The translations under genes were made by a program, and so were the position numbers. Below are positions 3,790 through 56,122 of a DNA stretch of 64,000 bases, in pieces. Every line of letters begins with the position of its first letter. Positions within the stretch are counted from its first letter, which is position 1. The notes beneath the pieces are model-generated. The model did not search any database, was not told the origin of the DNA, and saw nothing but the letters and a program-made list of their open reading frames with translations. The stretch is from Pseudomonas sp. DG56-2. GTDB lineage: Bacteria; Pseudomonadota; Gammaproteobacteria; Pseudomonadales; Pseudomonadaceae. Location of the stretch: the NCBI RefSeq assembly GCF_004803755.1, contig NZ_CP032311.1, forward strand, positions 5,234,001-5,298,000, read 5' to 3'.

Positions 3790-5850
3790 TTAACCCGCTT
3801 TGACCGATCGCGGTGCCTTGCCCGACTTCATTTGCTCCAGCAACGGCGTGCACTGATTGGGCACATCGCCACCCGGCGCCACCAACGCCAGCAAGCCCGC
3901 CGCCGGGCCGACCGCCAGCCCCAGCGCTACCATACCCGCGCCGCGCAAGGCCAACGGCACCGCCTGTACACCTGCGCTTGGTTTGGCAAAAGGCCCGCGC
4001 ACATACAGGGGCGAGCGCAATGAAAACAGCCGCAAGCCCTTGGACTCGGGATTGATTTTCAGATCCAGCTGTTCACTGGCAAAGTTGGCCGTTCCGTCGA
4101 TATAGATGATCGCGTTCTCAGTATCGAATACGAACAGCCGAGTGGTCGCCAAGCCGTCCTTGATCCCGAAGTCGGCTGCCGCGCAGTTGATCTTCACTTC
4201 CTTGTCACCGAACAATTGCCCCACCACATAGTTGCCAACATTAAGCCCGGCAATTTCCATCAAGCCGCGGCTGATCGCACCATCGTTGATGAGCATCTTC
4301 AGCTCACCATTTGAGGTTGCCAGCAACTTCGCCACCGAGTTGCCCCGTCCGCTCAAGTCCGCATCGCCATTGAGCTGGCCGAAGCTGGTCTTCATCGGCT
4401 CGAAAGTCGGGAACAACTGCTTGAGCTTGAAGCCTCTGGCACTGAGTTTGGCCCGCCCCTGCAAAGGAACTGCACGTCCATCGAGACGTATCTGCGCATC
4501 GAGCTTGCCGCCTGCCACACCAAAGCGCAGCGGCTCCAGGCGCAGCACGCCATCGTCAAGTACAAAGTGACTGGAGAGATCAGTGAAGGGCAAATCCTCG
4601 CTGTGAACGATCCGTTTGCCGCTGAAGGTCACGTCGGCATCCATGGTCCGCCAACGCTCGGTACGAAATTCCTCGACCGGCAGCACCTTGCCCGCAGGTT
4701 GTTTGCTGGCCCCGCCCCGCGCCTTTTGCTCAGCGTTGGAGTCTGCACCGATCAGCGGTGCAAGGTCCTTGAACAGCAATTGATTGGAAACAAGGTTGCC
4801 ACTGAGTTTGGGCCGTGGCTGTCTGGAGGCGAAGGTGAGGTCGCCGTGAATATCACTGTCACCGATCTTGCCGTTGAAGCCTTGATAGCGAAACAGCGCC
4901 CCCCCAGGCTCATGTAGTTTGGCCGTCAGATGCCCATCAGTGGAATAAGGCGGCGAATCCGGCAGGGTTACACCGGTAAGCGGATAGAGATTACCCAGGC
5001 TGGCACCCGAAAGGCGCAGACGCAGGTCCAGCCCGCCGAGGTTACGCGGATCCGTCAGGGTACCGGCAAGGGCTACCCGGGTATCGGCAATCTGTATGTC
5101 GGCCTGCAAAGGGAACGGCTGACTGGCGTCCTGCAACGCCAGCAGCCCGCCAATCTTGCCAGAGCCGGAAAGCGCCTGGCCCTTGTAACGTCCCTTGGCC
5201 TTGAGACCGAATGCATAGTCCTGGGCATTGCCAGCTTTCTGCGCCGAGGCCTTACCAACGATATCGCTGAAAGGTATGGGCTTGCCGAGCGGGTCAATCT
5301 GCACATCCAGGGTCGTTTTCAGCGTTTGGTCATCAAGGCTTACCTGGCCCTTGTCGAAACCAATGGCGCCGATATCCAGCACCCACGGCGACGGTTCGGC
5401 ATTCTCATCCTTGGGGCCGAAGTCGAAGGTCCAGTTGGCGCGCCCATCTGCCAGGCGTTTCAGGCTGGCTGTGGGTTGGTTCAAATCGATACGCGGAATC
5501 ACGATACGCTGGAACAGCAACGGCAGGGGCGACAAGCGAAACTCGACACGTTTGAGGCCAACCATTTGCGGCTCCTTGAGCCACTGCGGGTTACCCAACG
5601 TCAAGTCGTCCGCGATGAAGCGCGGCCACGGTACCCAAGCTCGCCACCCCCCCTCCTCAGGCTCGCGCTGCCAACGTACAGCGAGGTTGCCGTTAATGGC
5701 GAAGGGCCTGTGCAGTGCCTCCGAGACCTTGGCATTGAGGGTCGGCTTGATCCGGTTCCAGTCGAATGTGGCAATGACGATCACCACAAGTGCGAGGACC
5801 AGTAGCAAGCTGGCGAGGGTCCAGGTAAGGATTTTCACGGGGCGCGTCAT
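3790..5850 (-). CDS. AsmA-family envelope protein
   Basis: A 686-residue protein with one N-terminal membrane anchor (about residues 7-27) and a long periplasmic beta-rich part. FDWNRIKPTLNAKVSEALHR is the typical AsmA start. A C-terminal AsmA_2 region includes INDGAISRGLMEIAGLNVGNYV and LNGDADLSGRGNS. The family is thought to act in lipid traffic or outer-membrane biogenesis. The start at 5850 is preferred to 5880 because aggag lies 9 nt upstream and the anchor then begins immediately. A short glycine/alanine-rich hydrophobic stretch lies near the C-terminus (about residues 640-660). It is convergent with the ferritin-like gene. Confidence 0.85.
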   Translation of the reverse strand: MTRPVKILTWTLASLLLVLALVVIVIATFDWNRIKPTLNAKVSEALHRPFAINGNLAVRWQREPEEGGWRAWVPWPRFIADDLTLGNPQWLKEPQMVGLKRVEFRLSPLPLLFQRIVIPRIDLNQPTASLKRLADGRANWTFDFGPKDENAEPSPWVLDIGAIGFDKGQVSLDDQTLKTTLDVQIDPLGKPIPFSDIVGKASAQKAGNAQDYAFGLKAKGRYKGQALSGSGKIGGLLALQDASQPFPLQADIQIADTRVALAGTLTDPRNLGGLDLRLRLSGASLGNLYPLTGVTLPDSPPYSTDGHLTAKLHEPGGALFRYQGFNGKIGDSDIHGDLTFASRQPRPKLSGNLVSNQLLFKDLAPLIGADSNAEQKARGGASKQPAGKVLPVEEFRTERWRTMDADVTFSGKRIVHSEDLPFTDLSSHFVLDDGVLRLEPLRFGVAGGKLDAQIRLDGRAVPLQGRAKLSARGFKLKQLFPTFEPMKTSFGQLNGDADLSGRGNSVAKLLATSNGELKMLINDGAISRGLMEIAGLNVGNYVVGQLFGDKEVKINCAAADFGIKDGLATTRLFVFDTENAIIYIDGTANFASEQLDLKINPESKGLRLFSLRSPLYVRGPFAKPSAGVQAVPLALRGAGMVALGLAVGPAAGLLALVAPGGDVPNQCTPLLEQMKSGKAPRSVKAG

Positions 5851-51770: not shown

Positions 51771-52313
51771 TCAGAACTTGATGAAATGCTCGCGGTAGTG
51801 ACGAAGTTCGTTGATCGATTCACGAATGTCGTCCAGCGCCAGGTGGGTACCCCCTTTCTTGAAGCTGTCGCGCACTTCAGGGGCCCAGCGTGCAGCCAGC
51901 TCCTTGAGCGTGGACACGTCGAGATTGCGGTAATGGAAGTAATTCTCCAGGCCACGCATGTGACGGTAGAGGAAGCGGCGATCCTGACAGATGCTGTTGC
52001 CGCAGATCGGCGACTTGCCTTTTGGCACCCACTGCTCAAGGAAGGCGATGGTTTGAGCCTCGGCCTCGGCCATACTGACCTTGCTGTCCTTGACTCGCTG
52101 AGTCAGACCGGAGCCGCCGTGAGTACGAGTGTTCCACTCGTCCATGCGCGCCAGCACCTCGTCACTGTGGTGAATGGCAATCACCGGACCTTCGGCCAAC
52201 GTGTTGAGTTCGCTGTCGGTTACGATGGTGGCCATTTCAATAATGACATCGTGGTCTGGATCCAGACCGGTCATTTCCAGGTCGATCCAGATCAGGTTCT
52301 GTGGGTTCTGCAT
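51771..52313 (-). CDS. orn: Oligoribonuclease
   Basis: A 180-residue DEDDh exonuclease that degrades 2-5-nt RNAs, including the pGpG left from c-di-GMP breakdown. Motif I is [20 protein letters not shown] (about 9-28), motif II includes [11 protein letters not shown] (about 106-116) and motif [14 protein letters not shown] (about 157-167), with the catalytic His. It is full length. It is divergent from rsgA across 91 bp, a conserved pairing in gammaproteobacteria. Confidence 0.97.
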
Positions 52314-52404
52314 GATTCTGCTCCTCGGTAGGTGCGCAGTTTAGCCTAGTGGAGCGTGCTAAACTCCACGCCGTTTAATAATGCTTGCCGAACACGGAAC
52401 CTTC

Positions 52405-53436
52405 ATGGCCAAACGCCAGCTCAATCGCCGCCAGAACTGGCGGATCGAAAAAATCCAGGGTGAACGCGCTGCCCGCGCCGCCAAACGCGAACAACTGACC
52501 CTGCAGGAGCTCGAAGGCGGCGACCTGGGTCCGGAACAGCTCGGTCTGGTGATTGCTCACTTTGGCGTGCAGGTCGAGGTCGAAGCACAAGACGGCGAAG
52601 ATGCAGGCCAGGTGTTTCGCTGCCACTTGCGCGCCAACCTGCCAGCACTGGTTACTGGTGATCGGGTTGTCTGGCGGGCCGGAAACCAAGGCATCGGCGT
52701 AATCGTTGCGCAAATGCCACGCAACACCGAGCTGTGCCGCCCTGACAGCCGTGGCCAGCTCAAGCCTGTGGCAGCCAACGTCGACCTGATCGTGATTGTC
52801 TTCGCCCCTGCGCCGGAGCCGCACGCCAATTTGATCGACCGCTATCTGGTCGCCGCCGAGCATGCTGGCATTCACCCCCTGCTGTTGCTGAACAAGGCCG
52901 ACCTGATCGACGCGCAGAACGCTCCAGCGCTTAACGCCTTGTTGGCGGTGTACCGGCAACTGGGCTACCCGCTCCTGGAAGTGTCGGCCCATCATGGCGA
53001 CGGAATGCAGCAATTGCAGGCTCGCCTGGATGGTCATATCAGCGTCTTCGTGGGGCAGTCCGGGGTTGGTAAGTCTTCGCTGGTCAACAGCTTGCTGCCT
53101 GACGTGCAAACCCGGGTTGGCGACCTGTCAGAGTGGTCCGGGCAAGGCACGCACACCACCACCACCGCGCGGCTATACCACTTCCCGGGAGGTGGCGAGC
53201 TGATCGACTCCCCGGGTATTCGCGAGTTTGGTCTGGGGCACGTAAGCCGCGCCGATGTCGAAGCCGGCTTCATCGAGTTCAACGACCTGCTCGGCACCTG
53301 CCGTTTTCGCGACTGCAAACATGATCGCGAACCGGGCTGCGCGTTGCTCAAAGCCCTGGAAGATGGCCGCGTGCAGCAGCAGCGGATGAACAGCTACCGC
53401 TCGATCATCGCCAGCTTGCCGCAAGATAGCTATTGA
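52405..53436 (+). CDS. rsgA: Small-ribosomal-subunit biogenesis GTPase RsgA
   Basis: A 343-residue circularly permuted GTPase that checks late 30S maturation. Order is permuted as expected: OB-fold first (about 60-110), G4 NKADL (about 168), G1 [14 protein letters not shown] (about 213-226), G3 DSPGIRE (about 262), then the zinc-binding Cys/His cluster [14 protein letters not shown] (about 292-305). The basic N-terminus starts [18 protein letters not shown], the standard RsgA start, so ATG 52405 is used rather than 52381. A hairpin follows the stop. Confidence 0.96.
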
Positions 53437-53443
53437 GTGAACC

Positions 53444-53468
53444 GGTGAGGCTCGCAAGGAGCCTCACC
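53444..53468 (+). terminator. Hairpin after rsgA
   Basis: ggtgaggctc (53444-53453), a 5-nt loop and gagcctcacc (53459-53468) form a perfect 10-bp stem 7 bp after the stop. No T-run. The next 168 bp up to 53636 contain no recognised gene. Confidence 0.6.
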
Positions 53469-53636
53469 GCATTCCATGTAGGACTCACCTGCAGGAAAAT
53501 TTACCAAACAATGTAGGGCCATTCTTTATCGCTGGTCATACCTTGCCGCGACAAACTCTTTCATTGATTGTCGGCTTTCAGGTTCGCTTTCACCGGGTGA
53601 CCCAACTCCATGCTTTGAGCTTGAGAGGAAACGACA

Positions 53637-53699
53637 ATGATAAATCCAACCTTGACCAGCAACACCTTCACCCCCTGTGTACCAGGAGGACAGAACTGA
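53637..53699 (+). CDS. Possible 20-codon ORF coupled to the TIR-like gene
   Basis: An ATG at 53637 with gagagga 6-8 nt upstream opens 20 codons (MINPTLTSNTFTPCVPGGQN). Its TGA overlaps the ATG of the TIR-like gene by 1 nt (tgatg). This arrangement suggests a translated leader that couples or gates translation of the next gene. The strong aggagg of the TIR-like gene lies inside it. It could be chance; the peptide itself shows no known motif. Confidence 0.4.
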   Translation: MINPTLTSNTFTPCVPGGQN

Positions 53700-54181
53700 T
53701 GCCTGTGGTTATCAGCTATCGCCACCAGGAGCGCCTTGATGCCTTCATTATCAATGAACGCCTGAAGCTTGAAGGCATTGCCACCCAACTGGACCTCTAC
53801 GACGGCGAAACCGGTATGACTGCCGATGACGTCAGCGGTCAGGTCTGCAGCAACATCAGTGGCTGTACTCACCTGATCAGCGTCCTCTCCCCGGAAACCA
53901 TCGACTGTTGGTGGGTACCCTTCCAATTAGGCGCCGCCACCCTCGGCAATCGTCGCATCGCCCTGTACCAATGCGCACACTGCGCGCTGCCTGGATTTCT
54001 GGAGAAGTGGCCCATCATGAGCCTGCGCGAACACATCGATCTGTTCGTGCTCGCCTACCACGACGAACAGACATTCCGCCGCTCTATTTGTAGTGAAGGT
54101 GCTCACGCCGACGCCACCAATCGACTGAATGCCGGCTTCTTCCACGCTGACCTCAAGGCCAAGATCCGCCGTGGCTTTTGA
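53699..54181 (+). CDS. Stand-alone TIR-like domain protein
   Basis: A 160-residue protein. Residues 3-120 follow the TIR layout: first strand VVISYRHQERLDAFIINERLKLEGIATQLDLYD (box 1-like ISYRH), then CTHLISVLSPETIDCWWVPFQLGAATLGNRRIALYQ, then ALPGFLEKWPIMSLREHIDLFV. In the bacterial TIR-like proteins I know with this WWVP[WF]E[IL]G block, the Glu is the NAD-hydrolysing residue; here it is Gln76. So NADase activity may be lost or altered. The C-terminal 40 residues are polar and basic (KAKIRRGF). aggagg lies 9 nt before the ATG. It is alone between rsgA and motB, convergent with motB, and appears an accessory gene. Family assignment is by eye. Confidence 0.65.
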   Translation: MPVVISYRHQERLDAFIINERLKLEGIATQLDLYDGETGMTADDVSGQVCSNISGCTHLISVLSPETIDCWWVPFQLGAATLGNRRIALYQCAHCALPGFLEKWPIMSLREHIDLFVLAYHDEQTFRRSICSEGAHADATNRLNAGFFHADLKAKIRRGF

Positions 54182-54198
54182 CTTTCGCCAGAAAGCAC

Positions 54199-54230
54199 AA
54201 CGCCCGTGAACATTGCTGTTGACGGGCGTT
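54199..54230. terminator. Bidirectional hairpin between the TIR-like gene and motB
   Basis: aacgcccgt (54199-54207) pairs with acgggcgtt (54222-54230), placed 17 bp after each stop codon. Confidence 0.65.
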
Positions 54231-54247
54231 GCAGGCAAAGGCTGGGA

Positions 54248-55267
54248 TTACTCCTTGCTCTCGTCCATCTTCAATACGCCATCCTCGAAGATGTTCAGCT
54301 TCTGACGCAGTTCACGTGGCTGCATGGGCTCGTCAACAGGCGCGGGGGCTGGCGAGGCCGGATTGGGTGCCGGGGCGTCGGCACCTGGCGCGGCCCCTTC
54401 TGGTGCACCGGGCTGCGGCTGCTCGCCCTCGATGGTGCGCTGGGCCTTTTTGGTCAGCACGATAATATCGATACGCCGATTGACCGGATTGAGCGGATTG
54501 GCCCGATCAAACAACGAAGACGAAGCATAACCAACCACGCGGGCAACCTGGGTATCCGGGTAGCCACCCGCAACCAGAGCACGACGCGCTGCGTTGGCAC
54601 GGTTGGCCGACAGCTCCCAGTTGCCGAAGTCTCCGGTGCCAGCGTACGGCTTGGCGTCGGTATGGCCACTGATACTGATCTTGTTCGGTACAGCCTTGAT
54701 GGTATCGGCCATCGCCAGAAGGATGTCTTCGAAATACGGCTGCAAGCGGGCACTACCGAGGTCGAACATTGGTCTGTTTTCAGCGTCCATGATCTGGATA
54801 CGCAGGCCATCCTGGGTAATCTCGAACAGAATCTGGTCCTTGAACTTCTGCAGTTCCGGGTTCTCGTCGACCTTGTTCTGCAACTCCTGCAAAAGCAGTT
54901 CGAGGCGCTCACGCTCAACCTGCTCGGCCATACTTTCGACCTTGTCCTGATCCAGTTGAATGCTGGTGTCCGGCGTCGGTTCGGATTTGACTTCAGGGTT
55001 GATGGTCTTTTCCGGGGCAAGCTCGGGCGAACCGCCCAGGTCAATAATGTAGGGCGTACCGCTTTCCGAAAAACCGATGGGGTCCTTGAAGTACCCGGCA
55101 ATGGCGATTTTCTGTTCCGGTGTGGCAGTGGACATCAACCAAAGCACCAGGAAGAGCGCCATCATCGCCGTAGCAAAGTCGGCGAAGGCGATCTTCCAGG
55201 CACCACCGTGGTGGCCGTCGCCAAAGCGCTTTACGCGCTTGACGATAATGGGCTGATTATTCTCCAT
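54248..55267 (-). CDS. motB: Flagellar motor protein MotB
   Basis: A 339-residue stator protein. A single membrane helix starts WKIAFADFATAMMALFLVLWLM (about 24-45) with the proton-binding Asp30. Residues about 150-275 form the OmpA-like peptidoglycan-binding domain (ISISGHTDAKPYAGTGDFGNWELSANRANAARRALV). The C-terminal tail is Pro/Ala-rich (about 285-320). With MotA it makes the proton channel that drives the flagellum. It starts 3 bp after the motA stop. Confidence 0.96.
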   Translation of the reverse strand: MENNQPIIVKRVKRFGDGHHGGAWKIAFADFATAMMALFLVLWLMSTATPEQKIAIAGYFKDPIGFSESGTPYIIDLGGSPELAPEKTINPEVKSEPTPDTSIQLDQDKVESMAEQVERERLELLLQELQNKVDENPELQKFKDQILFEITQDGLRIQIMDAENRPMFDLGSARLQPYFEDILLAMADTIKAVPNKISISGHTDAKPYAGTGDFGNWELSANRANAARRALVAGGYPDTQVARVVGYASSSLFDRANPLNPVNRRIDIIVLTKKAQRTIEGEQPQPGAPEGAAPGADAPAPNPASPAPAPVDEPMQPRELRQKLNIFEDGVLKMDESKE

Positions 55268-55270
55268 GAC

Positions 55271-56122
55271 TTAGCGTCCGCGAACCGCTTGTTCCAGCTC
55301 GGCGAAACTTGGACGGTGGGCCGGGAACAGCACCTTGCGCCCGAATTCCACTGCCAGAGACGGCGGCATGCCGGAAGCCGAAGCCACCAGCGAAGCCTTG
55401 ATCGCTTCATAGACGTTGAGTTCTTCGCGGGCGTCCTGGCGCAGCGCGGTGGCCAGCGGGCCGAAGAAACCGTAGGCCGCGAGAATACCGAAGAAGGTAC
55501 CTACCAACGCCGCACCCACGTGCAGGCCGATGGCCTGCTGGTCGCCATCGCCCAACGAGGCCATGGTCACCACGATACCCAATACTGCAGCCACGATACC
55601 GAAGCCTGGCATGCCATCGGCGATACCGGTCACGGCATGGGACGGGTGCTCGAGCTCTTCCTTCATGCTCAACAGCTCCATGTCGAACAGGCCTTCGAGC
55701 TCATGGGGAGCCATGTTGCCGGTGGACATGATGCGCAGATAGTCACAGATGAAGGCAGTCATACGTTCATCGCCCAGCACCGCCGGGTATTTGGCAAAGA
55801 TCGGGCTGGAGGCGGCATCTTCGATATCGGCCTCGATCGCCATCATGCCTTCGCGGCGGCTTTTGTTGAGGATCTCGTAGACCAACCCGAGCACCTCGAC
55901 ATAAAACGTGTGGGTAAAGCGTGTGCCGAACATTTTCAGCGACTTTTTGATTACATGCATGGTCATGTAACCGGGGTTCGCCTGCAAGAACGCACCAAAG
56001 GCTGCGCCACCGATGATCAAGACCTCGAAAGGCTGAATCAGTGCCGCAATTTTGCCGTGAGACAGAACATATCCGCCGAGCACACTCGCGAATACGACGA
56101 TGATGCCGATAATTTTAGCCAT
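55271..56122 (-). CDS. motA: Flagellar motor protein MotA
   Basis: A 283-residue stator protein with four membrane helices. KIIGIIVVFASVLGGYVLSHGKI is the first; GIADGMPGFGIVAAVLGIVVTMASLG (about 168-193) includes the conserved Pro of helix 3; the cytoplasmic loop has RREGMMAIEADIED and DERMTAFICDYLRIM with the charged residues that contact FliG. The N-terminal length fits the proton-type MotA of pseudomonads. Behind a sigma-28 promoter 66-92 bp upstream. Operon with motB. Confidence 0.96.
   Translation of the reverse strand: MAKIIGIIVVFASVLGGYVLSHGKIAALIQPFEVLIIGGAAFGAFLQANPGYMTMHVIKKSLKMFGTRFTHTFYVEVLGLVYEILNKSRREGMMAIEADIEDAASSPIFAKYPAVLGDERMTAFICDYLRIMSTGNMAPHELEGLFDMELLSMKEELEHPSHAVTGIADGMPGFGIVAAVLGIVVTMASLGDGDQQAIGLHVGAALVGTFFGILAAYGFFGPLATALRQDAREELNVYEAIKASLVASASGMPPSLAVEFGRKVLFPAHRPSFAELEQAVRGR

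Follow-up and report, generated by a model that had tools for sequence, protein, structure and literature searches.

The original account of type IV Thoeris was reportedly given by Rousset et al. in 2025. As described in two articles (PMC12847820, PMC13373217), the TIR protein of this system produces N7-cADPR as a signal that switches on a caspase-like protease. In the Thoeris system of Staphylococcus aureus, another report (PMC11312562) describes ThsB1 as binding the phage major head protein and its catalytic Glu as dispensable for immunity. We analyzed a 64,000-nucleotide stretch of the genome of Pseudomonas sp. DG56-2 (contig NZ_CP032311.1, positions 5,234,001 to 5,298,000), here called the window, which carries a TIR gene between rsgA and motB (Table 1). 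Homologous loci in other Pseudomonas genomes resemble type IV Thoeris: a Peptidase_C14 (caspase-family) gene lies beside a Glu-bearing orthologue of the window gene, and a full ThsB_TIR gene precedes the caspase gene in 39 of the 48 Glu loci. The window locus differs in lacking both the caspase gene and the ThsB_TIR gene and in having the catalytic Glu replaced. We consider it likely that the window TIR gene descends from the third member of a former type IV Thoeris-like operon and that it now encodes a Glu-less, non-enzymatic protein under selection. Searches of open-access papers brought up no description of a lone TIR without Glu at the rsgA-motB site.

Table 1 Features of the TIR locus and its flanks in the window.
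Feature	Position	Strand	Description
rsgA	52381..53436	+	Left flank, core gene; found in 397 of 398 genomes
Hairpin 3' of rsgA	53443..53469		11-bp stem, no T run
Upstream element GCAGG-N17-GTAGG-N4-TTCT	53491..53525	+	Of a kind common to complete operons
Leader ORF	53637..53699	+	20 codons, own Shine-Dalgarno (GAGAGGAAACG), stop overlaps TIR start (TGATG)
TIR gene	53699..54181	+	160 aa, TIR fold; orthologue of the third gene of the ThsB_TIR-caspase-TIR operon
Hairpin between the converging TIR and motB genes	54198..54231		15-nt arms, 93% complementary
motB	54248..55267	-	Right flank

The initial annotation had recognized a TIR-like layout in the encoded protein and a Gln in place of the catalytic Glu, and both observations held. 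The protein has a predicted TIR (flavodoxin-like) fold (AF2 pLDDT 92) and structural matches to TIR proteins. Alignment to the structures 8btn and 8fz9 places Gln76 (codon 53924-53926) where TIR NADases have their third-helix catalytic Glu. The protein is like Thoeris ThsB in its fold, and it aligns with the W-x-P-x-E-x-G block of the structure 8btn, which is titled BcThsB. It differs in that the catalytic Glu is Gln, which is the substitution (E85Q) that gives a dead ThsB in the laboratory. Judged from its sequence, the window TIR is very likely no longer able to cleave NAD. Its Pfam TIR_2 score was 25.4 bits, under the gathering cut-off of 28, and that of a Glu-type orthologue (L080) was 45.3 bits. 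Searches with the window TIR protein gave no match in NCBIfam, in PHROGs (E 0.01) or among 50,697 phage records.

We surveyed 398 Pseudomonas genomes, sampled evenly from a larger group and including the window genome, and found TIR homologues at 83 loci in 81 genomes. The gene is thus patchy and not universal in the genus. It had been described as an accessory insertion; the locus is better described as the remnant of an operon. The loci were typed on fetched stretches with 1.5 to 5 kb per side, with caspase labels assigned by hand to each. Glu76 was present in 48 of the 83 loci, and all 48 had a caspase-family gene nearby. The other 35 had Leu (18), Gln (8), Ser (4), Gly (3) or Ala (2) at this position, and none of them, the window locus included, had a caspase gene in the rsgA-motB interval. 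Two non-Glu genomes (G007 and G294) had distant caspase-domain matches (28-29% identity) outside the interval. The caspase gene of the Glu loci was located directly upstream of the TIR gene, except in L118, where it was downstream. In L109, the caspase copy matched Peptidase_C14 with 61.8 bits and the ThsB_TIR scored 51.2 bits against a cut-off of 21.2. Four loci (L092, L099, L100, and L111) were without a ThsB_TIR gene and still had Glu76; the caspase was split over two frames in L082 and L114, yet both keep Glu76, and the copy of L089 was interrupted by a contig end.

In 80 of the 83 loci, among them all 35 without Glu, the fetched stretch contained rsgA or motB. The window TIR gene is an orthologue of the third operon gene, occupies the same site and shares the flanks and the upstream region, and an origin of its locus from the three-gene operon is well supported by these comparisons. 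The suspected link to immunity was borne out in that the same locus elsewhere is a TIR-caspase-TIR operon. The complete Pseudomonas and plasmid loci fit the type IV Thoeris layout, as assigned by gene content only. In 20 out of 20 relatives without any of the three genes in the interval, rsgA and motB were adjacent, 55-282 bp apart; these genomes rank high by rsgA, and G258, G389, and G138, of similar rank, were left out. Weak or broken matches elsewhere in the genome were seen in G405, G108, and G096.

Other arrangements were found at this site as well. Four genomes (G121, G422, G322, and G050; L130-L133) have a stand-alone, Glu-intact ThsB_TIR between rsgA and motB, which is the reciprocal remnant of the operon. 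All 51 readable locus rows of the ThsB_TIR have kept its own Glu; five loci are counted twice among them, and a 52nd row, a fragment, is left out. A general loss of Glu by single TIR genes was rejected on this count, which includes the stand-alone copies. A Glu-bearing ThsB_TIR lies beside a Glu-less TIR in L117 and L032. In L032 (P. fontis, 4001-5057), the TIR has Gly76, the ThsB_TIR is downstream instead of upstream and there is no caspase, so that the gene order is changed. An open, full-length caspase-like gene stands alone between rsgA and motB in G239 (L129, 6001-6960), with no TIR match beside it; G411 has only a caspase fragment in the interval, and G303 has a caspase gene elsewhere in the genome without a window-type TIR. 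In G042 (L115), ORFs judged by eye to encode a LysR-like regulator and an aminotransferase lie between rsgA and the Ser76 TIR, which indicates that the interval also accepts other genes.

We constructed a tree of 94 distinct TIR sequences with column 76 included. On this tree, the Glu label must change three times and so must the caspase label, with no row on which the two disagree. The sequences without Glu form three groups: a large clade with an Ala pair at its base (called putida-group from record names), a Ser pair (G042 and G284), and G432, which is sister to a Glu-type row. The association of Glu with caspase agrees in three out of three independent contrasts, which are too few for significance (sign test, p 0.25). 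Counts on the tree do not distinguish gain from loss. A relative was found on each of 16 plasmid records, six of which were opened. The plasmid TIR protein had Glu in all six, which favors Glu as the older state. Because Glu is present in the known NADases and in these plasmid relatives, we infer that the change was a loss and not a gain. Two TIR genes adjoin a caspase-family gene on the Klebsiella, Rhizobium, and Bradyrhizobium plasmids; on the Bosea plasmid, the caspase-family gene is larger and comes after the TIR genes. For the P. aeruginosa plasmid, an incomplete gene table lists two TIR genes separated by an unlisted gap. On the Agrobacterium plasmid, the nearest caspase-family gene is >2 kb off on the other strand; the TIR there keeps Glu and has a serine peptidase gene and a CHAT-domain gene upstream.

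Orphan loci and complete operons also share a block 3' of rsgA, GYAGG-N15..18-GTAGG-N4-TTCT followed by CCTTG. Among the non-Glu intervals, 34 of 45 had a relaxed form of it, and among the Glu intervals 25 of 38, where simple base shuffles gave expectations of 0.09 and 0.06, respectively; the pattern was derived from the same sequences, so its count is descriptive and not a test. Of the 20 loci without the operon, one had the relaxed block, on the opposite strand. The exact pattern of the window occurs once in the genome, only at the element in Table 1, and a search for a regulon of this element gave no other site with that pattern. No terminator-like site and no sigma-70 promoter were found in scans of 53400-54300, and an Rfam search of 52300-55300 gave no match.

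A tiny ORF with its own ribosome-binding site and ending on the TIR start had been noted, and its Shine-Dalgarno and stop overlap were confirmed. Of the 41 distinct putida-group sequences, 14 had an ORF of 17-20 codons with a Shine-Dalgarno and the same overlap, and two more (L021 and L022, both P. alkylphenolica) had it fused in frame to the TIR. In the L021 fusion (4001-4480), the TIR's own ATG has become ATA, so the start codon of the leader is likely the one used there. Among the 48 Glu-type rows, 44 likewise have a stop codon that overlaps the start of the TIR, so this geometry probably predates the loss. The ORF is conserved in place and variable in peptide sequence. It is probably a translational leader that couples its translation to that of the TIR, as suggested by its recurring position and one natural fusion. 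A functional leader peptide is unlikely, since position, start and stop overlap recur but the sequence varies; its Gly-Gly falls in the Shine-Dalgarno.

We searched the window genome for partners of the TIR. No caspase gene was found by protein search or with PF00656, and none for ThsB_TIR with PF08937, profiles that each matched 1 of 14 controls; PF18185, the profile for ThsA (SIR2-SLOG) of type I Thoeris, had 0 matches in the genome and likewise 0 of 14 in the control. The genome's one other TIR_2 match (L065, 1453-2460; G000:C1:3717573) is a different, 335-aa protein with an N-terminal TIR domain. Action of the window TIR with distant partners, which had been suggested, is unproven. A TIR subunit that binds the phage and can do without its Glu has a precedent in ThsB1 of S. 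aureus (PMC11312562). ThsB1 differs in that its Glu is still present and that it works together with ThsB2 and ThsA, and no such partners were found in the window genome.

The gene without Glu bears the marks of purifying selection. No internal stop was found in the 83 TIR matches, those of the 35 non-Glu loci included. The dN/dS (NG86) of the twelve nearest non-Glu pairs was 0.04-0.16. Pooled over disjoint near pairs, it was 0.168 in the non-Glu clade (19 pairs) and 0.120 in the Glu clade (20 pairs), and the median of all pairs with dS 0.1-1.2 was 0.249 (391 pairs) versus 0.152 (623 pairs). The depths of the two clades differ, so the contrast between regions matters here rather than these totals. 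With region limits chosen after inspection of the alignment, dN/dS in the non-Glu versus the Glu clade was 0.109 versus 0.203 for residues 1-28, 0.225 versus 0.045 for residues 29-83 (the BB loop and the second and third helices, on the NAD-pocket side), 0.178 versus 0.070 for residues 84-106, and 0.130 versus 0.166 for residues 107-160. Columns fixed (>=95%) in one clade only were counted on 44 Glu and 41 non-Glu rows, with L011, L012, L112-L114, and L116-L119 excluded. With the same region limits, 36 columns within residues 29-83 were fixed only in the Glu clade and 3 only in the non-Glu clade, versus 18 and 17 outside this region (Fisher p 1.4e-4). In the C-terminal helices, 13 positions were fixed only in the non-Glu clade and 5 only in the Glu clade. 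Distances of the TIR followed those of rsgA in the 41 non-Glu rows (Mantel r 0.834) and in the 35 Glu rows (r 0.594), with 0 of 999 permutations as high in either clade, which indicates that inheritance is mainly vertical. Retention of the Glu-less TIR by selection is well supported by these patterns, and the pocket side seems to have been released from selection, with the constraint on the first helix and the C-terminal helices kept or somewhat tightened.

The history that we favor starts from a type IV Thoeris-like operon of ThsB_TIR, caspase and TIR genes, which would once have stood between rsgA and motB. In the window lineage, the ThsB_TIR and caspase genes would have been lost so that the TIR alone remained, and this TIR would have lost its catalytic Glu and become non-enzymatic while still being selected. 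Since the Glu and the partners are gone and yet selection preserves the protein, it is probably a non-enzymatic binding protein. Protein binding through the first and C-terminal helices is our best guess, and candidate partners would be the protein itself, a phage trigger or other phage protein, or another TIR, such as an active incoming one. Several observations count against the operon-loss reading: the higher all-pair median dN/dS of the non-Glu clade, the Glu kept beside a split caspase in L082 and L114, the caspases without a window-type TIR in G239 and G303, and the Agrobacterium Glu TIR far from a caspase.

The same median, together with the missing partners and the relaxed pocket side, would also fit a functionless relic that slowly decays after loss of its effector, and the closely spaced rsgA and motB of the 20 relatives indicate that the gene is dispensable over longer times. 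We regard a relic as unlikely, as it is at odds with the low dN/dS of the nearest and pooled non-Glu pairs, the absence of stops and the positions newly fixed in the C-terminal helices. Those helices and the first helix, which pair TIRs in plants (the AE interface), are where constraint sits, as would be expected of a brake for self-protection that pairs with the active TIR subunits of an incoming type IV Thoeris and blocks them. In three of the six plasmid stretches opened, TIR and caspase genes are neighbors, on plasmids that are mobilizable or conjugative, and a Glu-bearing ThsB_TIR still lies beside two non-Glu loci; we give this brake some credence but hold it to be improbable. The initial annotation had also offered an NAD- or signal-binding protein. 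Dead TIR mutants can still bind NAD, the TIR fold is kept, and NAD-bound SARM1 E642A was among the structure matches. The claim is nevertheless not supported, because the pocket side, residues 29-83, is where constraint is most relaxed, which makes a sponge or sensor that holds NAD or a cADPR isomer uncleaved very unlikely. An enzyme that uses another acidic residue as its catalyst is scarcely credible: such residues are present in the protein, but residue 76 has drifted (Gln, Leu, Ser, Gly, or Ala), the non-Glu clade varies at pocket-side positions that the Glu clade holds constant, and E85Q kills ThsB.

The loci at the rsgA-motB interval form a natural series, with the complete TIR-caspase immune operon at one end and an orphan TIR without Glu at the other. 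It suggests that loss of the effector goes with loss of the catalytic residue while the protein stays selected, and bacterial TIRs may thus have a function without NAD cleavage. The annotation of the window gene as a TIR defense enzyme may mislead as to its mechanism. As a tentative generalization, which could well prove wrong, TIRs of caspase-type Thoeris may repeatedly become non-enzymatic after loss of the caspase and be kept for protein binding on helices off the NAD pocket. They would then either restrain active TIR systems that enter the cell or bind phage components and so protect without an effector.
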